DNA from: Chloroflexota bacterium
GTDB lineage: Bacteria > Chloroflexota > Anaerolineae > Fen-1058
NCBI GenBank assembly: GCA_016219235.1
Contig: JACRBO010000174.1
Location: 1-13,157, forward strand
Direction: 5' to 3'
Length of the DNA: 13,157 nt
Positions 1,089-12,989 of the stretch are shown piece by piece. A program made the translations under genes and the position numbers. The notes beneath the pieces are model-generated. The model searched no databases and was not told where the DNA came from. It saw only the letters and a list, made by a program, of their open reading frames with translations. Position 1 is the stretch's first letter. Every line of letters begins with the position of its first letter.

Positions 1089-1192
1089 TGCTTCACAGGC
1101 CGGTGGCTGTCGGCTTGAGGCTGAAGAATTTGTAGGCATTGCGCGCAAATGGCTGTCGGTCTTTGTCCTACACGTGCCCCTGCAATCGATTT

Positions 1193-1207
1193 GCGCGTGT
1201 CACGCGC
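1193..1207. promoter_or_regulatory. 15-nt dyad over the -35 region of the kinase promoter
   Basis: GCGCGTG-T-CACGCGC has two perfect 7-bp arms around one central base. It covers the place where the -35 box should lie (about 1198-1203) for the TATAAT at 1221-1226. No good -35 consensus is present there. This arrangement suggests a promoter controlled by a dimeric protein bound at the dyad. Confidence 0.5.
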
Positions 1208-1220
1208 CCGGACTCTGGTC

Positions 1221-1226
1221 TATAAT
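1221..1226 (+). promoter_or_regulatory. -10 box of the histidine kinase promoter
   Basis: A perfect TATAAT lies 70 bases before the kinase start codon and predicts transcription from about 1233. The -35 region is poor (TGTCAC at 17-base spacing), which fits a promoter that depends on an activator. Confidence 0.6.
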
Positions 1227-1243
1227 GGACTTAGTGATGTCAC

Positions 1244-1276
1244 TTCAAGCGTCGTTCACTTTGAGCGACGCTTGAA
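1244..1276 (+). other. 15-bp hairpin in the leader of the kinase mRNA
   Basis: TTCAAGCGTCGTTCA (1244-1258) pairs with TGAGCGACGCTTGAA (1262-1276) around a CTT loop, with a single G-T wobble. It begins about 11 bases after the predicted transcript start and ends 8 bases before the GGAG ribosome site (1285-1288). No T tract follows on either strand, so it is not an intrinsic terminator. It may stabilise the mRNA or act as a binding site. Confidence 0.6.
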
Positions 1277-1295
1277 AAGAAGACGGAGCAGTTCG

Positions 1296-2651
1296 ATGCC
1301 GCCCACACTTGAATCCGAACCTGATGAAGCGCAAAATGACGCAGGCCAGCTGGACAAAGCCCGACTGTACCGTGAGAGTCAACGCTTGAACGTCGAGTTG
1401 GAACAGCGTGTCGGCGATCGCACCGCCGAATTGCGGGCCGCGGTCGCGCAGCTAAAACAATCGGAAGCGACGATCCAGACGCTGTTCCGCATCAGCACGA
1501 AGCTGAATGCGACGCTCGACGTGGGCGTCATCCTGGATGAACTGGCACAAGAAGCTATCCGCATTGTCAACGGTGAAAGCGGCTTTGCGGGTCTACGAAC
1601 ACCCGACGGCATGACGGTTCGCAAATATTTCCGGCAGGGTCGAGCCATCCCGTTTGAATACACCTGGCCGGCGGGGCTCGGCATCCCCGGCTGGGTGTTG
1701 CAGCACAAAGTCCCCTATGGCACCAGCGATGCGCGCCACGATCCGGTGATCCAGTTGGAACTCGCGATCAATGCCGATGTGCGCTCGATCATTTGTACGC
1801 CAATTCTGGACTCGATCGGTGAGGTGCTGGGCTATTTCGATATCCGCAACAAGCGGGACGGCGAAGGTTTCACCATCAGCGATCAAGAAATGCTGATGGC
1901 ACTCGCCCCGGCCGCGTCCATCGCCATTCAGAATGCGCTGGCCTATCAGCAGCGCCTGTCAGCCGAAGCCGAGCTGCAGGCGTCGTATGAACGTTTGCGC
2001 GCGCTGGCGGCCAATCTGGAATTGGTGCGCGAAGAGGAACGGACGCAAATTGCGCGCGAACTGCACGATCAATTGGGGCAGGCGTTGACAGCGATGAAGT
2101 TCGATCTGGCATGGCTGACCGATCGGCTGGTAAGTAAGGACGCCGCGCTTGGCCAACGGGCGAAAGCGGTCACCGCGCAGATGGATACGATGATCAAAAC
2201 GGTGCGCCGCATCGCGACCGAGTTGCGGCCGGGCATGTTGGACGACCTCGGGCTGGCCGCCTCGATCGAATGGCTGGCGCACGACTTTGAGAAACGCACG
2301 GGCATTGTGTGTGAAGTGAATCTACCTGTTCAAGACCTGCCTTTATCGCGTGCTCAATCGCTGGCGCTGTTTCGCATCTTTCAGGAAGCATTGACGAATG
2401 TGGCCCGTCACGCCGGTGCACAGCTCATCGAAGTGGTCCTGCGGGTCGACGCCGCGCCCGAGGTGTTGACGCTTCAGGTTCACGATGACGGGCGCGGGAT
2501 TCAAACGGGTGAAATTGCCGGCTTGCACTCGCTGGGCCTGCTGGGAATGCGCGAGCGCGCGCAGCGTCTGGGCGGCGCCTTCGCTATTCGCGGTGCGCCG
2601 GGTGACGGAACGTTCGTGACGGTGTCGATTCCCGTCAAGCCGACTGACTGA
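1296..2651 (+). CDS. Cytoplasmic GAF-domain sensor histidine kinase (HisKA_3/NarL partner type)
   Basis: A 451-residue soluble kinase with no membrane segment. After a polar N-terminus, a coiled coil spans about 20-60, then a GAF sensor domain about 65-215, a second coiled coil 217-248, a HisKA_3 dimerisation/phosphoacceptor domain with ELHDQLGQ (phosphorylated His257), and a HATPase domain with N-box FQEALTNVARHA (362-373), G1-box DDGRG (397-401) and G2-like LGLLGMRERAQRLGG (413-427). It should autophosphorylate and pass phosphate to the regulator encoded directly downstream. The GAF ligand cannot be told from sequence. An upstream in-frame extension to 1149 exists, but GGAG at 1285-1288, 7 bases before ATG 1296, and the promoter at 1221 fix this start. 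The stop overlaps a possible ATG of the next frame by one base, so the pair is one operon. Confidence 0.93.
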   Translation: MPPTLESEPDEAQNDAGQLDKARLYRESQRLNVELEQRVGDRTAELRAAVAQLKQSEATIQTLFRISTKLNATLDVGVILDELAQEAIRIVNGESGFAGLRTPDGMTVRKYFRQGRAIPFEYTWPAGLGIPGWVLQHKVPYGTSDARHDPVIQLELAINADVRSIICTPILDSIGEVLGYFDIRNKRDGEGFTISDQEMLMALAPAASIAIQNALAYQQRLSAEAELQASYERLRALAANLELVREEERTQIARELHDQLGQALTAMKFDLAWLTDRLVSKDAALGQRAKAVTAQMDTMIKTVRRIATELRPGMLDDLGLAASIEWLAHDFEKRTGIVCEVNLPVQDLPLSRAQSLALFRIFQEALTNVARHAGAQLIEVVLRVDAAPEVLTLQVHDDGRGIQTGEIAGLHSLGLLGMRERAQRLGGAFAIRGAPGDGTFVTVSIPVKPTD

Positions 2652-2674
2652 TGTGGTCGAATCGGAGACGTATG

Positions 2675-3304
2675 ATGCTTAGAATTCTGTTAGCCGATGA
2701 TCACGCCGTGGTGCGCCAGGGCGTCAAGCAAATTCTGGCCGACGCGTTTGCCAGGGCCACGTTTGGTGAGGCGCAAAATGCCCGCGAACTGCTGGACCTG
2801 GTTGCCGGCAAGCGTTGGGACATCGTGGTGTTGGATCTGACGATGCCAGGCGGCAACGGCCTGGAGGCGTTGAAGCAGATCAAGCACGATCGGCCGCAAC
2901 TGCCGGTGTTGATTCTCAGTATGTATCCTGAAGATCAGTATGCGGTGCGAACCATTCGAGCGGGGGCGGCGGGCTACTTAAACAAGGAGAGCGCGCCGGA
3001 GGAGCTGGTGACTGCCATCCGCAAAATCTTGCACGGCGGGAAATACATCAGCGCGGCGGTCGCCGACGAGTTAGTGCTGCACGCCCGGCACGAGGATGAT
3101 CAGCCACTGCATAAACACCTGTCAGATCGTGAGTATCAAGTGCTGTGCCTGATTGCGGCGGGTAAGGAGGTCAAAGAAATTTCCACTGAACTGTCCCTGA
3201 GCGCCAAAACAATCAGCACCTATCGCACGCGGCTGCTGGAGAAGATGAACATGAAGACAAGCGCTGAACTCACCCACTATGCGATTCAGAACGGTCTGGT
3301 CTAA
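2675..3304 (+). CDS. NarL/LuxR-family response regulator
   Basis: A 209-residue two-domain regulator. Receiver domain: acidic pair D8-D9, phosphoacceptor D54 in VVLDLTMPGGNG, conserved serine in LILSMYP (80-86) and K104 in YLNKESAPEE. The C-terminal LuxR-type helix-turn-helix spans about 147-205 (LSDREYQVLCLIAAGKEVKE, then the recognition helix around LSAKTISTYRTRLLEKM). Phosphorylation by the upstream HisKA_3 kinase should promote dimerisation and DNA binding; palindromes near the kinase promoter could be its targets, which is a guess. Start choice: GGAG at 2664-2667 is 7 bases from ATG 2675. ATG 2672 (4 bases) and ATG 2651, which overlaps the kinase stop, are in frame but less well placed. 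The family is certain; the target genes are unknown. Confidence 0.94.
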   Translation: MLRILLADDHAVVRQGVKQILADAFARATFGEAQNARELLDLVAGKRWDIVVLDLTMPGGNGLEALKQIKHDRPQLPVLILSMYPEDQYAVRTIRAGAAGYLNKESAPEELVTAIRKILHGGKYISAAVADELVLHARHEDDQPLHKHLSDREYQVLCLIAAGKEVKEISTELSLSAKTISTYRTRLLEKMNMKTSAELTHYAIQNGLV

Positions 3305-3440: not shown

Positions 3441-4115
3441 TCACATCTCCTCCTCCAGCACCCTTCCATTCTCCCTGAGCCACGCCTTCGCCTCCTCATA
3501 CTTCGGCACCTGTACCGAGACGATGTTCCAGAACCTCGCCGTGTGATTCGGCTCCAACAGGTGCGCCAGTTCGTGGACAATAACGTAATCGATGACGAAG
3601 GTCGGCGCTTTGATGATGCGCCAGTTGAAGTTGAGGTTGTTCTTTGGCGTGCATGATCCCCAGCGGACTTTGAGATCGGAGATGAGCACACGACCATAGG
3701 TGACGCCTAAGGCTTTGGCAAAGGCATCGACTTTGGCGGGGAGTTTCTGCCGCGCCCGTTCGATGTACCACTCGCGCACGAGGCGCGCCGCGTTCGACCG
3801 CTGGCGGCGCGAGAGGGTGAAGCCGCCGTTGAAGTGCAGGCCGGGCACATCATCGTTGGTCAGATCGAGGCGGTAGTTGCGGCCCAGATAGAGGAGCGTT
3901 TCACCAGCGACGAATTCTTTGCGCGTAACGTATGCCGGATACTTTTGCTTGTGGTTGGTCTTCTCGTACAGCCACAAGCGCTTGGCTTCGACGGCGTGGC
4001 GGATGGAAGTATCGCTGGTGCCAAGCGGGGCGCGCACGACCACCGAGCCATCGCGCTCGACGATGAGGCTAAGCGTGCGGCGCTTCGAGTAGACGACAGA
4101 ATAATTGAGTTTCAT
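3441..4115 (-). CDS. YgjP-like zinc metallopeptidase (DUF45/COG1451 family)
   Basis: A 224-residue protein of the YgjP/DUF45 family of predicted zinc-dependent hydrolases. The N-terminal half is a beta-rich domain (SVVYSKRRTLSLIVERDGSV, 6-25). The family signature RWGSC is at 151-155. The gluzincin-like active site HELAH is at 181-185 (zinc ligands H181, H185; catalytic E182), with the third ligand H191 in the EPNHTARFW segment. All catalytic residues are present. No signal peptide is visible, so it should be cytoplasmic. The substrate is unknown for this family. It lies 63 bases after hsdR on the same strand with a palindromic repeat in the gap, so it is probably the last gene of the restriction operon; genes of this family are often found beside type I systems. 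It could instead be a separately expressed housekeeping gene. Confidence 0.88.
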   Translation of the reverse strand: MKLNYSVVYSKRRTLSLIVERDGSVVVRAPLGTSDTSIRHAVEAKRLWLYEKTNHKQKYPAYVTRKEFVAGETLLYLGRNYRLDLTNDDVPGLHFNGGFTLSRRQRSNAARLVREWYIERARQKLPAKVDAFAKALGVTYGRVLISDLKVRWGSCTPKNNLNFNWRIIKAPTFVIDYVIVHELAHLLEPNHTARFWNIVSVQVPKYEEAKAWLRENGRVLEEEM

Positions 4116-4178: not shown

Positions 4179-7100
4179 TCAGTCACGCACAATAGTAGCA
4201 TGATTCTCTCTCGCCCATTCCATCAGGCGCGAGATGAGCGGCTGCCACTTCGCCAGCATATTCGGATAGGTGACAAAGCGTTCGGACAAGAGTAACTGCT
4301 GCAATTCGGCCTTCAGGCGATTCTGCGCCGGGATGGACTGCCAGAAGCCGGCCGAGCGCACTTCGCGCTGAAGCACGATGAAGATATTTTGCGTTAGATC
4401 GACGTTTTGGGCAATTTCGTCTTCGCTCAGATCGCGGTTGTCGAAGAGTTCGGCCCGGAAGATGCGGAAGATGGGCATCTGCCGCTTGCGATCGAGGCCG
4501 TAGGTCTGCTCTTTCTCTTTGGCTTCGATGCGCTGCCGCAACTTCTCCAGTTCTTCGACGATCTTGTCCCAGTTGTCTTTGAAGTCGCGCAGGATTTGCT
4601 CCAGCGCCTGCGCGAAGGACGAGAACAGTTCCGGGTCTTCGTCGATGTTGACATCGATGAAGTGGCGGATGGCATGCTCGACGGCGGCGGCTTTGGTCTT
4701 GCTGCGTTTGCGCGCCTGCACGTCCTTCTGGAAATCGTCGTCCAGAATCGAGATGGGCGCGACCTTCAGCGTGATGCCCTGCGAGCGCAGATACTCATCG
4801 GTGATGGTGCGCAGCTTGGGCGGAATGCCCTTCATGCTCAGGCGTCCATCGTGCAGATGCCGATAAGCCAGTTCGTTGACTTCAGAAAAATTCTGGTAGT
4901 CGGGCCACACGTCGAGCGCTTCTTTGCGCGGCATGGCCTGATTGAAGGCGCTGGTCAACTTCTGGAACGCGAGGATGTAGTCAAAGCGGATGTCTTCGTC
5001 GTAGAAGAGATCGAAGAAGGCATCGGGATCGGAGAAGTCGTGCAGGCCGTGGCGCTTGAGCAAGTCCCAGATTTCCCGCCGGGCCTGCTCCAGTTCGCCG
5101 AGGATGTCCTGTTCGTCGCGCAGCGCATCGAGGATGTCCTGCTGCTCGCGTTCGGCATAACTGTCGAGCGCGCGTTTGAGATGATGGCCGATGCCGACGT
5201 AGTCCACGACGAAGCCGCGCTCTTTGTGCTCGTCGCCGACGCGATTGACGCGGGCGATGGTCTGCAGCAAGTTGTGATCGGTGATGACGCGATCGAGATA
5301 GAGCACCTGCTCGATCGGCGCGTCGAAGCCCGTGATCAGCATGTTGTTGACGACGATGATGCCCACGCGCCCATCCACCCGATCGGTCCCCTCACCCTCG
5401 ATCGATTCGAAGGGCAGTTTGAAGCGGCGGATGCTGCGGCGATGATAGCCTTCGTCGGTGAAGGGCTTGAGATGCGCCAGATCGTTGTGACCCCCCGAAA
5501 TGACGACGGCTGTTTCCAGCGTCCGCAAGCGATCGACGTTGATGCACAGCGGATTCTTGATCTCAAGTTCGGCGATCCTGGCTTGCAGCGCGGCGTCGAG
5601 GTAGGTCTTGTAGCGCACCGCGGCCTCGCGCGAGGTGGCGACGACCTGCGCCTTGAAGCCGCCGGGGAAGACGTGGCGCACGTAGTGATCGATCATGTCG
5701 AGCGCTTTGGCGCGGATGGTGTCCTGCGCTTCCAAATAGGCATCGCGCGAACCGTAGCCCAGAATTTGCAGGCGCTCGCCCAGATTGTAGTCGCTGAAGA
5801 CATCCTCGAAGCGTCGATCCATCGCCGCCGGGTCGCTGATCTCGGCGTTGTGCGTGCGCCCTTCGTACACGATTTCGAGCGTCGTGCCGTCGGCGATCGA
5901 CTGGCGCATGGTGTACTTGTCGATGTAGTCGCCGAAGGTCTGCTCGGTCCGATCGATGGGCGTGCCGGTGTAGGCGATGCGCGCGGCGTTGGGCAAGGCC
6001 CGATCGAGATTGGCGCCCAGCAGTTTGTACTGCGAGCGGTGCGCTTCATCGATCATGATCAGGATATGCGGGCGCGGGTTGAGTTCAGGGAAAATCTCGC
6101 GCAGATCGCGCTCTTGAAATTTGTGGATCATCGCCATGACCAGATCGGGCGAGTCGGTGGCGAGCAGTTCTTTGAGGCTGCGGCCGGGCCGATCGGGATT
6201 GGGGTTGATCCACTCGACGATCTTCACCGTCTGCCCGACGCTGCCGCCGGTCTCCGTCAACTGTTCTTCCAGCTGCGTCCGATCGGTGACGAAGACGATC
6301 TTCCAATCGGCAAAGGCCGTCTGCCGCCGCATGGCACGCACCATGAACATCATCGTCAGCGATTTGCCGGAACCTTGCGTGTGCCAGATGATGCCGCTGC
6401 GCTCGCGGCGATTGCGCCCGTCCAGCAGGCGCTTCACGGCCAACTGCACCGCGCGGAACTGCTGATAGCGCGCAACGATCTTGATGGTCTGGCCTTTGTC
6501 GTTGACGCCGAAGATGGTGAAGGCGTGAATGAGGCGCAGGAGATTATCGGGCGCGCACATGCCGGCGAGGAGCCGCTGCTGATCGTTGGGCGCGGTGCCT
6601 TGATGCGGCACGCGAAGCGCGTCGAGCGTGAGCGGATATGGATCGCTCCAGCGGTAGAAGTGCTTTTCGATGTGCGTGGTGAGCGTGCCGAATTTGGCCT
6701 GCTGGCGGCAGGTGGCGACTATGAACTGGTTGTAGGCGAACAGCTCTTGATTGCCTTCCGCACCTTCACCGCGCTGCTGGCTATAGCGCAGCAGTTGATC
6801 GATGGCTTCGGCGATGGCGTCTTTGACGTGCGGCGATTTGCATTCGACGACGGCGACGGGCAGGCCGTTGAGGAACAGCACCACGTCGGGCACGACGCAG
6901 TGCTCGGTGCCGGGCACGCGCACTTTGAATTGCGAGATGGCGATGAACGAGTTACGCTCGGGATGCTGAAAGTCGATGTAGCGGACGGTGGGGCTGATTT
7001 CGCCCGTGGTGTGATTGACGGCGACGTGCGTGTTGTCCAGCAGCAGTTCCAGCACGCGCCGGTTGTTCTCGATGAGGTTCTTCTGCGGGAAGTGCGTGAT

Positions 7101-7352
7101 CCGATTGACGACTTCGGCCACCTGATCATCGCGCAGGAAGGGATTGATGCCGCGCAACGCCTCGATCAACTTGGGCTTGAGCACGATTTCGCCAAAGTCC
7201 GATCGGAAACTCTGCCCCGGCGATTGATGATGCAAGTCCAGCCGGATGACATCCCAGCCCAGATCGTGCAGTTGATCGAGCAGCGGCTCTTCGACGTGCG
7301 ACTTCTCGTCGAGGCGGATAGAGGCGGTGGCTTTGTCGTTGGAGAGGATCAT
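4179..7352 (-). CDS. hsdR: Type I restriction enzyme R subunit (HsdR)
   Basis: A 1057-residue HsdR of normal length. It is the ATP-driven translocase and nuclease of the R2M2S complex: it pulls DNA past the bound specificity subunit and cuts unmethylated DNA at a distance. The N-terminal PD-(D/E)XK nuclease is visible as PDVVLF (155-160) followed by VVECKSP (168-174), giving D156, E170 and K172. Helicase motor motifs follow: Walker A HTQGSGKS (324-331), motif II DEAH (435-438), motif III TGTP (462-465), motif V TGFDAP (674-679) and motif VI QTIARVNR (697-704). The C-terminal part is helical and should bind the methylase core. ATG 7352 has AAGG about 12 bases upstream. It follows hsdS, but a repeat-GIY-YIG-repeat unit is wedged between them. 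The gene appears intact with all catalytic residues. Confidence 0.97.
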   Translation of the reverse strand: MILSNDKATASIRLDEKSHVEEPLLDQLHDLGWDVIRLDLHHQSPGQSFRSDFGEIVLKPKLIEALRGINPFLRDDQVAEVVNRITHFPQKNLIENNRRVLELLLDNTHVAVNHTTGEISPTVRYIDFQHPERNSFIAISQFKVRVPGTEHCVVPDVVLFLNGLPVAVVECKSPHVKDAIAEAIDQLLRYSQQRGEGAEGNQELFAYNQFIVATCRQQAKFGTLTTHIEKHFYRWSDPYPLTLDALRVPHQGTAPNDQQRLLAGMCAPDNLLRLIHAFTIFGVNDKGQTIKIVARYQQFRAVQLAVKRLLDGRNRRERSGIIWHTQGSGKSLTMMFMVRAMRRQTAFADWKIVFVTDRTQLEEQLTETGGSVGQTVKIVEWINPNPDRPGRSLKELLATDSPDLVMAMIHKFQERDLREIFPELNPRPHILIMIDEAHRSQYKLLGANLDRALPNAARIAYTGTPIDRTEQTFGDYIDKYTMRQSIADGTTLEIVYEGRTHNAEISDPAAMDRRFEDVFSDYNLGERLQILGYGSRDAYLEAQDTIRAKALDMIDHYVRHVFPGGFKAQVVATSREAAVRYKTYLDAALQARIAELEIKNPLCINVDRLRTLETAVVISGGHNDLAHLKPFTDEGYHRRSIRRFKLPFESIEGEGTDRVDGRVGIIVVNNMLITGFDAPIEQVLYLDRVITDHNLLQTIARVNRVGDEHKERGFVVDYVGIGHHLKRALDSYAEREQQDILDALRDEQDILGELEQARREIWDLLKRHGLHDFSDPDAFFDLFYDEDIRFDYILAFQKLTSAFNQAMPRKEALDVWPDYQNFSEVNELAYRHLHDGRLSMKGIPPKLRTITDEYLRSQGITLKVAPISILDDDFQKDVQARKRSKTKAAAVEHAIRHFIDVNIDEDPELFSSFAQALEQILRDFKDNWDKIVEELEKLRQRIEAKEKEQTYGLDRKRQMPIFRIFRAELFDNRDLSEDEIAQNVDLTQNIFIVLQREVRSAGFWQSIPAQNRLKAELQQLLLSERFVTYPNMLAKWQPLISRLMEWARENHATIVRD

Positions 7353-7387
7353 GTGCGCTGCACCTTCATTGTGTCATCATCCCAGTC

Positions 7388-7484
7388 GTGTCATTCCGAA
7401 TGCCGTGAGGAATCTCTTTCCTGATTGGCACTCGTTGTTGGCCGTGATAGAGATTCCTCGTCGCTACGCTCCTCGGAATGACAC
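7388..7484. repeat. 97-bp imperfect palindrome, copy A
   Basis: The ends are a perfect 12-bp inverted pair, GTGTCATTCCGA (7388-7399) and TCGGAATGACAC (7473-7484). An inner perfect pair follows, GAGGAATCTC (7407-7416) and GAGATTCCTC (7450-7459). The centre (7417-7449) is unpaired. It starts 36 bases upstream of the hsdR ATG and stops 6 bases short of the GIY-YIG stop codon. Copy B at 7799-7898 shares the same ends. Confidence 0.85.
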
Positions 7485-7490
7485 AAGCAG

Positions 7491-7781
7491 TCAGTCTAAC
7501 TCCCCACTCAAATCTTTCCATGTCGGATTCATGGATTCGATCAACGTAACTTTCTTACTGCGCCGCCAGCCTTTGAGTTCCTTCTCTCGCGCCAGCGCCG
7601 AGTGTACGTCGTTGGTGACTTCGTAGAAGACCAGTTGTGTTACATTGTACTTCTGCGTGAAGCCTTCGACGAGTTTCTGTTGATGCTGCTCGACGCGACG
7701 GCGCAAGTCATTCGTCATGCCGATGTAGATGACTCGCGAACGGCTCGCCATGATGTAGACGTAGTATTGCTTGGTCAGCAT
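7491..7781 (-). CDS. Small GIY-YIG domain endonuclease
   Basis: A 96-residue single-domain GIY-YIG protein of the UvrC N-terminal/YhbQ-like type. The GIY counterpart is YVYI (7-10) and the YIG counterpart is IYIG (18-21). The helix NDLRRRVEQH (24-33) carries the active-site arginine region, and AREKELKGW (64-72) the metal-binding Glu66. The C-terminus IESMNPTWKDLS is characteristic of this small subfamily. These enzymes cut DNA in one metal-dependent step; the role of the stand-alone members is not established. ATG 7781 is chosen because GGAG (7790-7793) is 8 bases upstream; the longer frame from 7805 starts inside the flanking repeat and lacks a ribosome site. It shares the strand of hsdS and hsdR and would be co-transcribed. 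No DNA-binding domain is attached, so any target specificity must come from elsewhere. Confidence 0.9.
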   Translation of the reverse strand: MLTKQYYVYIMASRSRVIYIGMTNDLRRRVEQHQQKLVEGFTQKYNVTQLVFYEVTNDVHSALAREKELKGWRRSKKVTLIESMNPTWKDLSGELD

Positions 7782-7798
7782 GGCAACGACTCCGTTTA

Positions 7799-7898
7799 GT
7801 GTCATTCCGAGCGGAGCGAGGAATCTTTTCCTCTGCCGACAATATACGCCGGTCGGGTAGAGATGCTTCGTCGCAAAAGGCGCTCCTCAGCATGACAC
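7799..7898. repeat. 100-bp imperfect palindrome, copy B
   Basis: It starts GTGTCATTCCGA (7799-7810) like copy A, followed by GCGGAGCGAGGAATCT, and ends TCAGCATGACAC (7887-7898), two mismatches from a perfect inverted end. The inner right arm AGATGCTTC is a decayed version of AGATTCCTC. It lies 5 bases upstream of the GIY-YIG ribosome site and 10 bases past the hsdS stop. It is less perfect than copy A, so the two have diverged. Confidence 0.8.
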
Positions 7899-7908
7899 AT
7901 GGATTGGG

Positions 7909-9141
7909 TTATAGCAATGGTTCCACCGAGACTTTGCCAGTTAGTAGGTCTTGCATCAGGCCAGTCTTGAGACGATAGAGTTTAGCAAGGCGTGTGTTTT
8001 CGGATTGTATGCCAGCATCCTGTGCAGCGAAAGCGTTAACAATGCGCTTTTGCTCTTCGAAACTCGGCCATGCGAACAACAGGCCGTTTAGGATCGCTGT
8101 ATTTGCAACCTCACGTCCACCAGCATTGACTGACTCGCGTATTTGCCTTCGGGTTCGTTCGTGAGTGATGCTGTGATGCAAGAAATCTGGATCGGCCAAA
8201 GAATTGGCTAGCGAAATGCGCATCATATTTGAAGACATGATCCAGCCAGACTCTGAAGATCGAACAACCACGGACCGACCCACATCGGCCACTCGTGAGA
8301 ATACCAAGTCACCTTCCTCAACGGCATAGGTGGCCAAAGCGTGGGCTTTACTCTTGCTAATGAAGAGAAGCTCCGACTGAATAAATTCGCCTTCGCCAAG
8401 CGACCCAATGGTTATAACGGGAACGCCTACACCTACCCAATCTCTGGTCTTCAATGAGGAACCGAATGGACCAGTCTTGATGTGCGGCTTATCATGGCGT
8501 CTCTTGGCATCCAAGTGTGACTCTTCCCACTCCGCCGGAATCATCCCCAGCGGCGAGGGCTTGAACTCATGTGTCGCCGGATCGCGCAGTTGACCATGCT
8601 CGTCGATGCCGTGCGTCAGCAGGTCGTTCATCAGGCCGGCTTTGATGCGCTGGTATTTGGCGATCAGCGCTTCGGTCTGTTCGATGACGCGATCAACGGC
8701 GGAGAGGACTTCGGCGATTTTTACCTGTTCAGGTTGCGGCGGAAAAGGAATCTCGATTCCGTAAAATGTTTCTCTCGACAGGCTGGGAACGCCAGTGGCT
8801 TCATTAAAGTACGCCAAGCCAAGCGTCTGAACAAGATTGTAGAGCCACTTGGTTGATCCATCAAAATCGGAAGTGTAGAAAGCGGTGTCAACAGGCCAAA
8901 AGGGATGATCAATGTAGAGGGGATTATCCAGCGTGCCCTTTCGACCGATAATGATAGAGTCCCCCGCGCACAATGCACTCGTACCCATCTCGATTAGGCC
9001 GCCAGTGCCATAGATTGGGATGCTGCCATCCACGGAACGAATCGCCGACTGTAACTTTCCGTAGTTCAGCTTCAGATGGTTCCCAATGCGATCAAACTGC
9101 CATCGATCTGGGATTGATTGTTTTTCGAATCGAAGGCGCAT
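7909..9141 (-). CDS. hsdS: Type I specificity subunit (HsdS)
   Basis: A 410-residue HsdS of normal length. It reads the bipartite DNA target and holds two methylase subunits and the R subunits. Target recognition domain 1 spans about 1-140, ending in GIEIPFPPQPEQVKIAEVL. The central conserved helix 140-178 ends QRIKAGLMNDLLTHG. Target recognition domain 2 spans about 195-362, ending FAWPSFEEQKRIV. The C-terminal helix ends YRLKTGLMQDLLTGKV, a clear repeat of the central one, as expected for the pseudo-symmetric fold. The recognition sequence cannot be read from this. The start lies 5 bases after the hsdM stop, so translation is probably coupled; only a weak GGAT is seen upstream. GC falls in the recognition domains (42% at 8821-8880, 52% at 8041-8100) against 63% at 8581-8640, the usual sign of domain exchange. 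Confidence 0.95.
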   Translation of the reverse strand: MRLRFEKQSIPDRWQFDRIGNHLKLNYGKLQSAIRSVDGSIPIYGTGGLIEMGTSALCAGDSIIIGRKGTLDNPLYIDHPFWPVDTAFYTSDFDGSTKWLYNLVQTLGLAYFNEATGVPSLSRETFYGIEIPFPPQPEQVKIAEVLSAVDRVIEQTEALIAKYQRIKAGLMNDLLTHGIDEHGQLRDPATHEFKPSPLGMIPAEWEESHLDAKRRHDKPHIKTGPFGSSLKTRDWVGVGVPVITIGSLGEGEFIQSELLFISKSKAHALATYAVEEGDLVFSRVADVGRSVVVRSSESGWIMSSNMMRISLANSLADPDFLHHSITHERTRRQIRESVNAGGREVANTAILNGLLFAWPSFEEQKRIVNAFAAQDAGIQSENTRLAKLYRLKTGLMQDLLTGKVSVEPLL

Positions 9142-9146
9142 GAGGC

Positions 9147-11951
9147 TTATCCGATGTATCTCAGCGTTGAAAGAAACCCACGTAATGAGTCAAGTGACTG
9201 CTGACGATCAGATTCAATCTTCGTAGATGCAATCGCGTACTTCTCCCACAGATTCTCAAAGAAATGCACCAGTGCTCGCTGCTCGGTATTCAAATGGCGG
9301 TCAAGTTGCTCGGCAATGAGATCGTAATGCTTGCGCAGGATCAGGTCTCTGGCATCGTCGTCGGTGATGGTGCCGCCCACGGAATCGGCCAGCCGTTCAA
9401 TCGCCGTGATGCGGGTTTGCAGCGTGGCAATGTCACGCGTCAAGGCCGTGCGCTTTTTCTTCTTGTCTTTCTCGGGCAAGTCGAGCGTGTCCACGTCGGC
9501 CAGTTCGGCTTGCGCCTGCGTCAGCAGTTGGCGCGCTTCCAGCGTTTCATCCTCCGGCCCGAATTTCTTAAGCAGGAGTTTCAGTTCCAACTCGAAGCGG
9601 GCATCATCAAGAGCCTTGCGCAGTTGCTTGATGCGTTTCTCGCCGGCGCGGATCGCATCGAGGGCGGATTGGTAAGGCGCGAGGTCGGTGTTGTCAGATG
9701 CTCCCGCTGCGCGAAGCGTGTCAAATCCAGCGGTCTCAGACGACGGATTTGGCAATCCGTCGCGAGCCTCACTAATCGCCGCAATGAGTTGATCGCGCAT
9801 GAGGGCAGCGGTGATCTTCTCGTCCTCTTCAGCCTCGTATTCCAGCACGGCCTGCGCGGCCTCGACGGCTTCTTCCAGCGCACCCTCGGCCTCGCCCAGG
9901 TCGGCTTCCAACTGTTCGATCGCGCGCGCCTCGGCCTGAAAGAACGCCTCGATCAGATACGGGTCGGGAATCAGCGTCGGACTCCAGCCGTTCTGCATGA
10001 TGGTCTTCAGGTCATACTTGATGTTGTCCCACCAGTTGACGAACACGCCCGCCACCTGAAAATCGTCGAGCACGCCCAGCGGCGTGAGCTGCGCCTTGAG
10101 CGATTCGATCAGCGTGCGGCGGACCCTGGGCAGTTGCACGCTGCGCAGCGTCAGATACGCGCCGCCGCTCTCTCTGGCGATCGATCCGGTGTGATTGTTC
10201 ACGCGCCGATCGTCACTCAGCGCCAGCCGCGCAAAATCGGCCTGCGCTTCTGTCCACCAAGCCGATAGGTGATCGCGCGGCTCGATGAGCGTGTGCTGCA
10301 CGTGCGGATCATGTTCGATCAACGCTTTCAGCGCGTCCGGGCCGGATAAGTCCGATCGAAAATCGTAGTAGCGATCATCGCGATCGACGAAGAGCCGATC
10401 GGGCTGGAAACCAAACCGATCGAGTTGGCGGGTCTGCGCGGCCACTTCCGCTTTCGGCACACCGCCGATCAAATGCGCGCGCACATCCTCGGGTTCCGGC
10501 TCCGGCGTGTTATCGACATAGCGGCGAATGTTGAGATTCCAATCGTTGCGCTCGATCTCGGCCCGATCGACCAGGCGCGAATAACGCGGCACGTCCAACT
10601 TATGCGTGAAGACGTGATCGATCTTCTCGACATCTTCGGGGCGCAGCATGTTCTGATTCTTGCCCTCGGCGAACTCGGCATCGGCGTTGATGAAGAACAC
10701 CTTGTCGCGGAGTTCGTCGGGCTTGTGGCGATTGAGCACCAGAATCGCCGCCGGGATGCCCGTGCCGTAAAACAATTTGGGCGGCAGGCCGATGATGCCC
10801 TCGATGACGCCGCCATTGTCGGTGAGCAGCGCCTTGCGGATGTCCTTCTCTTTGCCGCCGCGAAACAGCACGCCGTGCGGCATGACGACCGCGCCGCGCC
10901 CGCTGGCCCGCAGGCTGGCCAGCATGTGCTGCACGAACATCAGATCGGCCTTCTTGCCGGTCTCGGGCGCGAGGCCGTATTTGAAGCGTTCTTTGTGCTG
11001 CACCGTGGCAGCCCGATAATTCTGCGAAAACGGCGGATTGGCGATGACGCGATCGAAGGAGAGCAGCCGGCCGTCGCGCACGTTGAGCGGCTCTTCCAGC
11101 GTATCGCCGAACTCAATGTGCGAGTTGGTGATGTTGTGCAGGATCAGGTTCATCTTGCAGATCGACACGACCGCACCGTCGTTGTCCTGCCCGTGCAGTT
11201 CCAGATTCTTGTCGTCGCCGCCCTGTTCGCCGACGTACTGCGCCGACTGGATCAACATGCCGCCTGATCCGGCGGTGGGATCGTAGACGCTCATGCCTTC
11301 GGCGGGCTTGAGCAGCTGCACCATCAGGCGCACGACGTGGGCAGGCGTGTAGAACTGGCCGCCCTTCTTGCCCGCGCTGTCGGCGAAATATTTGATCAGG
11401 TACTCGTAGGCCGCGCCGAGCAGATCGGGAAACTCGAAGTTGTCGTTGACCAGCACGAACTGCGGCTGATTGAAATGATCGATCAGGTCTTTAAGATCGG
11501 GATCACGGATGACGGGCTTGTCGTTGATCTGCCGGTTGAAGTTGATGTGCTTGAGCACGCCGCTCAGCACTTCGTTCTTGTCTTCCAGTTCGCCCAGCGC
11601 CTTGTTGAGCCGTGAGCCAATGTTGGCGTGCAGGTTTTTGATCGCAGGCTGCGGTTCTTGGTGCTCGTCAACGTAGCCTTCATTCCAGCGCGACAGCGGC
11701 GGCACAAACAGCGTATCACCGTAGGTCTGGCGCAGTTCCAGCAGTTCATCGACTTGCGCGGCAGGCAGGTGCTTGTAGACGCGGCGCAGTTCCAGACGTT
11801 TCGCGTCGAACACATCCGACGTGCGCTTGAGGAACAACATCCCGAAGATGTATTCCTTGTACTCGCTGGCGTCCATCTTGCCGCGCAGAATATCGGCCGC
11901 CGCGAAGAGGAAGTTTTCGAGTTGGGAGAGGGTGATCTTGGAGCGGTTCAT
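9147..11951 (-). CDS. hsdM: Type I DNA adenine methylase subunit (HsdM) with long C-terminal extension
   Basis: A 934-residue HsdM; classical forms are about 500-550. It should transfer a methyl group from S-adenosylmethionine to adenine N6 within the site read by HsdS. The N-terminal HsdM helical domain is at about 8-160. The methylase domain has QFYTP (199-203), SAM-binding motif I DPTAGSGG (224-231), catalytic motif IV NPPF (305-308) and a [12 protein letters not shown] segment (397-408). From about 540 the protein continues with a mixed domain, then long acidic and charged coiled coils (about 672-730 and 759-860), ending in a helix (about 865-934). Residues 730-756 are encoded by a palindromic insert. 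A similar extension occurs in one branch of HsdM proteins; here it may replace or extend contacts with HsdR or HsdS. The promoter gives a probably leaderless mRNA. First gene of the operon. Confidence 0.95.
9684..9764. repeat. Palindromic repeat in frame inside hsdM
   Basis: CGACGGATT (9741-9749) and AATCCGTCG (9754-9762) form a perfect 9-bp stem with a TGGC loop. Beside it lie two TGTCAGAT/TGTCAAAT-like words (9692-9699 and 9719-9726) around a GCTGCGCGAAGC hairpin. Read as protein it gives a low-complexity, helix-breaking stretch (HsdM residues 730-756, rich in Gly, Ser, Pro, Asp) between two charged helices. It keeps the frame. I infer a REP-like insertion into a linker that tolerates it. 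Confidence 0.55.
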
Positions 11952-12374: not shown

Positions 12375-12923
12375 CTAATGACTCTCGTAATAGTTCTTCT
12401 CCCCCGCTTCAATCCGAACCTTCAGATGATTCTCCCGAGGGGGCAGGGGGCAGGACCAACGCTGGACGGCATTGGGATTTTCCTCATAAGGCTCGTTGTA
12501 CGCGCAATACGGATTGTAGGCATAGTTGAAGTCGATCGCGAACTGGCCGCCGGCGGTCGGCTCGAGGTCGAGGTGGCGCCCCGCGCCGTACGTTTCTTCG
12601 GGCGCAGTGGCATCGACGAAGGGCAGGAAGAAGTAGCCATCGTCGGCATCTTGATAGACTTGCAGCGTGGCCGCTTCGCCGTTCACGTCGAAGGTGAATT
12701 GCCCGTATTTCAGATACTCACGCGCGCCGCCCGTGCTGGTGATCATCGTGACGACGGGTTTGGGATCGTATTCCTCAACCGTAACCCACAACCGTAACAG
12801 CGGATTTTCCGGGAAATACTTCAGGCCGTCAAAGTCCCGCTGCTGATCGGGCGTCAATGGTGACTGCCAGTCGTGTTTGAAGAAGTCATCTTTCTGTTGG
12901 CGGAATTCAGTTAAGTTAGTCAC
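12375..12923 (-). CDS. DUF1684 domain protein
   Basis: A 182-residue protein of the DUF1684 family, whose biochemical role is unknown. The N-terminal helix FRQQKDDFFKHDWQSPL is followed by LKYFPENPLLRLWVTVEEYD, then beta strands including LKYGQFTFDVNGEAATLQVY, the LPFVDATAPEETYGAGRHLD core and the hallmark DFNYAYNPYCAYNEPY followed by RWSCPLPPRENHL. The tyrosine/asparagine/cysteine-rich hallmark suggests a conserved site. No signal peptide is seen. The GTG start at 12923 is chosen because AGGAG (12930-12934) is 6 bases upstream; the in-frame ATG at 12965 has no such site. A 10-residue stretch (EENPNAVQ region) sits between CAYNEPY and RWSCPLPP, where relatives I recall run more directly. It is flanked by a tRNA terminator upstream and gene remnants downstream, so it looks monocistronic. 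Confidence 0.88.
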   Translation of the reverse strand: MTNLTEFRQQKDDFFKHDWQSPLTPDQQRDFDGLKYFPENPLLRLWVTVEEYDPKPVVTMITSTGGAREYLKYGQFTFDVNGEAATLQVYQDADDGYFFLPFVDATAPEETYGAGRHLDLEPTAGGQFAIDFNYAYNPYCAYNEPYEENPNAVQRWSCPLPPRENHLKVRIEAGEKNYYESH

Positions 12924-12989
12924 ACGCCTCTCCTGCAAAACTGGACTGCTTGAATTGTCCCACAAAAACCACGGTCGTTACAGGCAAAC

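Follow-up and report, generated by a model that had tools for sequence, protein, structure and literature searches.

The window analysed here is a stretch of 13,157 nucleotides from a Chloroflexota bacterium, and it carries a type I restriction operon on its minus strand. A small gene for a GIY-YIG nuclease, enclosed by two palindromes, lies between hsdS and hsdR, so that the order along the window is hsdR, palindrome, nuclease gene, palindrome, hsdS. The features are:

4179–7352, minus strand: hsdR, type I restriction subunit, downstream neighbour on the coding strand (open reading frame and profile matches)
7388–7484, no strand: left REPIN-type palindrome, 97 bp; two inverted head-outward GTCAT repeats with a short spacer
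7388–7415, plus strand: REP unit GTGTCATTCCGA..GAGGAATCT with GTC tag, ATTCC/GGAAT base and tandem G-A mismatch (sequence reading; repeat family D1)
7450–7484, minus strand: inverted REP unit AGATTCCTCG..CTCGGAATGACAC (sequence reading; inverted pairs I2 and I4)
7491–7781, minus strand: GIY-YIG nuclease gene, 96 residues (alternative start at 7805, 104 residues)
7799–7898, no strand: right REPIN-type palindrome, more diverged
7799–7826, plus strand: REP unit GTGTCATTCCGAGCGGAGCGAGGAATCT (sequence reading and repeat search)
7861–7898, minus strand: inverted, diverged REP unit AGATGCTTCG..CTCAGCATGACAC (sequence reading)
7909–9141, minus strand: hsdS, type I specificity subunit, upstream neighbour on the coding strand (open reading frame and profile matches)
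9147–11951, minus strand: hsdM, type I methyltransferase (open reading frame and profile matches)

An earlier note on this DNA had described two related palindromes of about 100 bp around a GIY-YIG gene, and this description was borne out by the complementary arms, the likeness of the two starts and the match of the gene product to PF01541. The plus-strand copies beginning GTGTCATTCCGA at 7388–7418 and 7799–7829 are 81% alike over 31 nt. In the left palindrome the outer arms are complementary at 12 of 12 positions (7388–7399 with 7473–7484) and the inner arms at 13 of 14 (7407–7420 with 7446–7459), and none of 200 shuffled sequences folded as well as DNA (z −5.7). The right palindrome folds more weakly (z −1.9; 7 of 200 shuffles as good). 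Each is an inverted repeat pair of the form TGTC-ATTCC-GA...GA-GGAAT-CT, the outer repeat of the right-hand pair having diverged. The note had allowed 5–6 bases between gene and palindrome on each side; this is right for the stop side (6 bp) but not for the start side, where 17 bp separate the palindrome from the 96-residue start. The 104-residue start overlaps the right palindrome. The outer ends of 7388–7898 are inverted as claimed, though the exact part covers only GTGTCAT, and the gap between hsdS and hsdR would indeed be 45 bp if the unit were taken out.

REPs are among the commonest bacterial repeats and fall into two superfamilies, GTAG, which has RAYT enzymes, and CGTC. The palindromes of the window have the make-up of REPINs, namely two inverted REPs and a short spacer, and dispersal was seen in related genomes. 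Within the class of G001 (a Thermoflexales MAG, Chloroflexi) the left palindrome, taken by itself, has matches at full or near-full length in G272 and G324 (76–79% identity) and the right palindrome likewise in G254, G272, G300, G324 and G363 (72–79%).

Further genes of the window encode GroES (17–316), an RRM protein (427–702), a GAF histidine kinase with a LuxR-type regulator (1149–3304), a YgjP-like metallopeptidase adjoining hsdR (3441–4115) and a DUF1684 protein (12375–12965). A spurious long open reading frame antisense to hsdR (4407–7424, plus strand) enters the left REP and ends ...CHSECREESLS; in-frame REPs of this type yield such peptides and could seed spurious database proteins.

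The nuclease and its distribution

The product of the window gene scored 59.6 bits against PF01541 (cut-off 22.6), and residues Y19, G21, R29, H33, E66 and N85 were invariant in all 37 aligned relatives. Y19, R29 and E66 are the Tyr, Arg and Glu that we take to be the catalytic residues of a GIY-YIG nuclease. The structure was predicted with a pLDDT of 94, and the folds nearest to the model were UPF0213 (BH0048) and Slx1, a branched-DNA nuclease, with I-TevI also among the structural matches. Profile score, conserved residues and fold thus agree in placing the protein in the GIY-YIG superfamily. None of the NCBIfam profiles gave a family above cut-off, and PADLOC returned only a weak match, to UzuA (E 4e-4).

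The nuclease is mostly intact and under purifying selection: dN/dS was 0.04–0.35 in eight pairs, and stop codons were present in 3 of 80 copies. Its distribution is patchy. Among 142 genomes of the alphaproteobacterial class to which the Rhodospirillales MAG G014 belongs, 44 had a relative (E ≤ 1e-8), at up to ten copies per genome; among 191 of the class of G002 (Magasanikbacteria; Patescibacteria), 113 had one. Purifying selection and the nearness of Slx1 would suit a structure-specific nuclease that is useful to the host, trims REP cruciforms and is kept beside its substrate, mobility being incidental. Such a role is, however, very improbable as the explanation given the patchy presence, the several copies per genome, the stop-bearing copies and the empty sites described below.

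Repeats around the nuclease genes

Relatives of the nuclease were gathered by protein similarity alone, and the best 80 of 249 confirmed stretches were used. The titles of their records include, among others, Acidobacteria, several Patescibacteria, Clostridia, Bacteroidaceae, Balneolaceae, Chloroflexi, Fibrobacter, Treponema, Gemmatimonadota, Chthoniobacterales, Phycisphaerales, Neomarinimicrobiota, Nitrospirales, Gastranaerophilales, Gammaproteobacteria and Rhodospirillales. A strict hairpin was defined as GTCAT, a 3-nt stem, a loop of 2–45, the stem again and ATC, no more than 200 bp from the gene. Among these best 80 of 249 it was found on the 5' side at 57 loci, on the 3' side at 55, on both sides at 47 and on neither at 15, counting four loci with a flank shorter than 150 bp. 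For control ORFs of the same loci the figures were 19 of 334 (5'), 24 of 334 (3') and 7 of 334 (both). The enrichment of palindromes around the subfamily that the earlier note had predicted is therefore present. The tag (GTC) of the outermost repeat pointed outward in 50 of the 57 cases on the 5' side and in 44 of the 55 on the 3' side. When each 70%-identity cluster was represented by a single protein, both sides were occupied at 27 of 42 loci. Counting again with a slightly larger 3' margin gave 48 of 80 for both sides and 65 of 80 for either.

Single classes were examined in the same way. When one locus was taken from each of 30 alphaproteobacterial genomes, the strict hairpin was present on both sides at 10 and on at least one side at 21, against 0 of 12 control ORFs. 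As the strict definition misses many alphaproteobacterial variants, a wider one was applied (GTC followed by a 7-bp stem, or the strict hairpin). This gave both sides at 20 of 49 loci and either side at 37 of 49. For the 762 control ORFs, which came from 800 kb of the alphaproteobacterial genome G143, the numbers were 1 and 65. The edge tolerance was 15 bp for the control ORFs and 0 for the nuclease loci, and just four genomes supplied 19 of the 49 loci. In the patescibacterial class repeats were seen on both sides at 14 of 30 loci and on at least one side at 28. The gene–repeat link is general and found in many phyla, and the window is one case of it.

Control genes were taken as the longest central ORF of their loci. 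By this measure none of 30 Y1_Tnp (RAYT-type) loci from host genomes had a repeat on either side, and among 19 uvrC loci from 18 genomes none had repeats on both sides and four had one on the 3' side. Four simpler readings were set aside: chance palindromes on the fold z-scores together with the counts at the flanks, a hotspot that takes any small gene on the control ORFs (7/334 and 1/762), a hidden RAYT driver on the RAYT-type loci (0/30), and a terminator role only on the 5' repeats and the outward orientation.

The link could also be approached from the repeats. Outward neighbouring pairs 250–700 bp apart were picked by eye among the repeat places listed, and all six such pairs enclosed the nuclease gene (G003:C5, G007:C1, G009:C132, G034:C1, G586:C3 and G607:C62). 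In 800 kb of G143 a single outward pair of this spacing was found, again around the nuclease gene, and the contig holds a second gene copy that has no such pair about it. Across the 142 alphaproteobacterial genomes the median number of repeats was 7 in the 44 gene-positive genomes and 0 in the 98 gene-negative ones, with at least five repeats in 25 of 44 and 10 of 98 respectively (Fisher p 1e-8, kinship ignored) and the same direction in three size classes. For the 191 patescibacterial genomes the corresponding figures were 47 of 113 and 11 of 78 (p 5e-5, kinship ignored). This co-occurrence is confounded by kinship. A reversed-pattern control gave no match in any of the 20 genomes of one scan and 7 matches in 6 of the 142 genomes.

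The gene-negative genomes that are rich in repeats, among them G678 with 104, may have lost the gene, may hold one below threshold or may be evidence against the link. They would be expected if REPs were spread by RAYT or other transposases and the nuclease gene were merely prone to lie among them, or if the repeats were its terminators, and RAYT-type genes are indeed present in 14 of 25 host genomes. This account is nevertheless improbable in our judgement, because none of the 30 RAYT-type loci inspected carries the repeat at the gene flanks, the tag-outward layout on both sides is rare around other ORFs, and terminators at the 3' end leave the 5' repeats unexplained.

Units at different sites, empty sites and deletion derivatives

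Two loci of one MAG (L033 and L036) share a 415-bp unit, 90% identical, that runs from TCGTCATTCAGAG to CTGGATGACG, and the sequence outside it cannot be aligned. This unit has inverted ends (CGTC...GACG), and the gene is accompanied by both end repeats at either locus. A second case comes from 81 genomes of Oscillospiraceae-type MAGs that were searched as one genus. Downstream of one gene G019 carries a REPIN plus a gene unit; at this place the aligned flanks are 46 bp apart in G486, with no GTCAT repeat, and G479 has REPINs only. Upstream of the same gene a unit is present in G463 and G474, and G018, G019, G486 and G419 are continuous there. Azospirillum lipoferum 4B carries REPIN, gene and REPIN between sufB and sufC. 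At this site short gaps and no GTCAT repeat are seen in A. ramasamyi (96.9% identity in the aligned flanks), in A. oryzae and in three others, the gaps measuring 55–129 bp in the four that are annotated; Azospirillum sp. B510 has an unrelated inverted repeat. Sinorhizobium meliloti Ak57 has a unit between gltA and lpxB, and Sinorhizobium K101 (94.9%) has only REP remnants.

The same unit is thus found at different sites, and sites are empty in relatives, as in a mobile element. The minimal mobile unit proposed in the earlier note is supported by these empty sites and by the enrichment at the flanks. Empty sites were found in Azospirillum and the Oscillospiraceae-type MAGs, at loci other than the one it had named; none was found between hsdS and hsdR when 199 genomes of the G001 class were searched. 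A search with the DNA of one further locus (L010) in 59 genomes of its genus found the left flank without the gene in several and the right flank elsewhere, so this was not counted as an empty site. Of what marks a classical insertion sequence, inverted ends were seen at L033/L036 and no known transposase is encoded. Target-site duplication was not visible at L033/L036 or in Azospirillum, where neither a base-perfect junction nor a base-perfect empty site could be read for comparison.

The same sites bear on another possibility, homing, in which resident REPs or REPINs are cut by the nuclease and receive its gene through break repair; the REPs would then be a target and landing pad, and something else would account for their dispersal. 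The GIY-YIG fold is well known from homing enzymes, I-TevI is among the structural matches, and both the REPINs at the G479 site that is filled in G019 and the REP remnants of Sinorhizobium K101 would be suitable targets. Against this, the site at which A. lipoferum has the whole unit is free of GTCAT repeats in A. ramasamyi and A. oryzae, as is the site filled in G019 when it is read in G486, and both end repeats move with the gene in L033/L036. Homing of this kind is unlikely, though it is a stronger contender than the other alternatives. Empty sites at which no repeat is present, as in A. ramasamyi, A. oryzae and G486, lean toward the unit moving as a whole.

Internal deletion is the way in which autonomous elements give rise to non-autonomous ones. 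In S. meliloti Ak57 an arrangement of REP, leader, last part of the nuclease gene and inverted REP lies beside the intact gene copy and is an internally deleted copy of the unit. In G019 the REPIN contains the stretch that directly precedes the 3' repeat of the G019 unit (GCGCCGGGGG..GATCC). Deletion derivatives of this kind fit the gene-less REPINs of the window.

Some further rearrangements were seen. In L236 (G463:C10, minus strand, left flank to 1644) a stretch of about 190 bp is present on both sides of the unit, each ending in the same REP, which gives the arrangement X-REP-gene-inverted REP-X'-REP; a footprint of an insertion or repair event is possible. In L188 (G343:C256, about 1344–1610) a match to hsdR residues 1–38 abuts a match to residues 924–975. 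This internally deleted remnant of hsdR was among the matches in the search for an empty hsdS–hsdR site.

CGTC-tagged REPs and a proposed mechanism

The repeats were also sought de novo. In 800 kb of G143, GTC was by rate the top trinucleotide before perfect hairpins of at least 8 bp (36 cases, 14.1 per 10,000; the median rate was 4.45), followed by TGG, the complement of a CCA tail. Among the 36 GTC hairpins the CCA tail was present in 24, and the stem began with AT in 20. These are traits given for the CGTC-tagged REPs by Di Nocera et al. 2013 (PMC3733652), where the tag is often TGTC, the stem starts AT and the tail is mostly CCA. The same paper states that CGTC REPs 'apparently lack a dedicated transposase', that the RAYT and other IS200 genes of the hosts are not flanked by them, and that, as the authors' guess, the CGTC enzyme was lost or replaced. 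It equates CGTC-1 with dRS3 and includes dRS3 of Neisseria and RPE-4/-6 of Rickettsia among the CGTC-tagged REPs. The nuclease gene is present in four of the hosts named in that paper, Azospirillum lipoferum, Sinorhizobium meliloti, Neisseria and Novosphingobium aromaticivorans. Many of the repeats flanking it in Alphaproteobacteria and Neisseria look like the published CGTC-tagged REPs.

Eight named records were inspected. GTCAT repeats were present on both sides in four, namely Neisseria gonorrhoeae (L364), A. lipoferum (L365), S. meliloti (L366, the near 3' repeat being degenerate) and Planktothrix (L370). The Neisseria repeat is GTCATTCCCGCGCAGGCGGGAATC, which, given its sequence and the equation of CGTC-1 with dRS3, is presumably dRS3. 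In L364 (NZ_CP119140.1) the relative of the gene is at 1501–1758, with GTCATTCCCGCG...CGGGAATC repeats on both sides; the record labels this 2.17-Mb molecule a plasmid and the gene site is unannotated. The other four records (L367, L368, L369 and L371) are without GTCAT repeats on both sides and have hairpins with another tag beside or near the gene. In N. aromaticivorans (L368) the hairpin is GTCGCCCC. In L367, L369 and L371 (Rhizobium/Sinorhizobium) longer repeats with an CCTCATTCCTGTGCTCGTCACAGG-like start, CTCAT-type or similar as against GTCAT, flank or lie near the gene, and in L369 a hairpin of this type lies further off on the 3' side. The L369 region as a whole, such repeats included, has 1146 matching places in 312 plasmid records.

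The base before GTC at 106 unit ends from the 80 loci was T in 82% and C in 15%. The window repeats (TGTC-AT) share the tag and the AT stem of the CGTC-tagged REPs. In place of the perfect stem of 8–9 bp, 4–5-nt loop and CCA-like tail of that family, however, their base is 5 bp long and followed by tandem G-A mismatches, the apex varies and the tail is CT; they are therefore called CGTC-like rather than members. In the repeats of G007 the base is constant while the apex varies yet is often self-complementary, which is expected if the hairpin is recognised. Several of the ten gene copies of G143 (L161–L170) have differing repeat stems, for example ATTCGCCG, ATTGCCGG and ATCCCCGC, suggesting matched enzyme–repeat lineages within one genome.

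The RAYT/REP system was an apt comparison for the earlier note to draw. Like REPtrons (TnpA-REP; GTAG REPs and REPINs), the present units have a small enzyme gene inside inverted hairpin repeats that are also dispersed as singles and dimers, a patchy distribution and several repeat classes per genome. Unlike them, the units have a GIY-YIG nuclease in place of the HUH tyrosine transposase and a (C/T)GTC tag in place of GTAG, and the 30 RAYT-type loci inspected in host genomes are without these repeats at the gene. A REPtron is a HUH/Y1 transposase gene flanked by REPs; as the HUH enzyme is absent, the unit is not a RAYT/REP member. With the CGTC-tagged REPs of PMC3733652 it shares the (C/T)GTC tag, the AT stem, inverted dimers, the CCA tail in G143 and some hosts; the difference is that they are said to be without a dedicated enzyme and a candidate is found here.

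We put at roughly 70% the probability that 7388–7898 is one copy of a widespread minimal mobile unit, outward-tag REPs or REPINs around a gene for a GIY-YIG nuclease of about 95 residues, which works in the manner of RAYT/REP with an unrelated enzyme. The action of the nuclease at the repeats would be as follows. It would recognise the base of an extruded or single-stranded REP hairpin (GTC-AT ... AT-C) and nick or cut there. The cut would allow the unit to be excised and copied, or the break would be filled by host repair from a unit elsewhere. The dispersed REPs and REPINs would then be non-autonomous passengers of the nuclease, as REPs are for RAYT enzymes. Three things suggest that hairpins, extruded or single-stranded, are cut and that the host then repairs the DNA: the Slx1-like fold, a hairpin base as the feature that would be recognised, and no obvious duplication of the target.

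The GIY-YIG gene is a candidate dedicated enzyme for a repeat superfamily described as having none, and it may be the long-missing partner of CGTC. A wider claim can be made, at about even odds: that these units are a distinct class of bacterial mobile DNA in about ten phyla, in which the nuclease of about 95 residues alone recognises the hairpin base (GTC-AT...AT-C) and moves itself and many REP/REPIN passengers. On this view it would be the enzyme that the CGTC superfamily, together with dRS3 of Neisseria, has been missing, and no earlier transposition-like system would have used GIY-YIG chemistry. If a dedicated GIY-YIG nuclease exists, the question of the missing enzyme is answered and the origin and spread of CGTC-type REPs become directly testable. 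It would also give meaning to the common annotation 'GIY-YIG nuclease family protein', and a minimal hairpin-bounded mobile unit of about 400–500 bp would be attractive for work on mechanism and for tool development. The link between nuclease and repeat had, according to the earlier note, seemed new; an earlier statement of it was not found in the open-access literature searched, and a subscription paper or preprint could hold one.

Free-standing GIY-YIG homing endonucleases of the T4 Seg type are stand-alone intergenic genes that are mobile and patchy, and the window nuclease resembles them in each of these respects. The unit here differs in being bounded by hairpin repeats that are themselves dispersed and in occupying several unrelated loci per genome. 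Slx1 and the small UPF0213/YhbQ-like GIY-YIG proteins have the closest folds (Slx1 and UPF0213 BH0048), and they are not known as REP-flanked mobile genes.

In plasmid p1 of Planktothrix agardhii (L370) the gene and its GTCAT repeats, at 1498–1782, lie between a type IIL restriction gene (MmeI) and the DISARM gene drmA, and the window copy lies inside a type I restriction operon. Units of this kind may favour defence loci or be tolerated in them.
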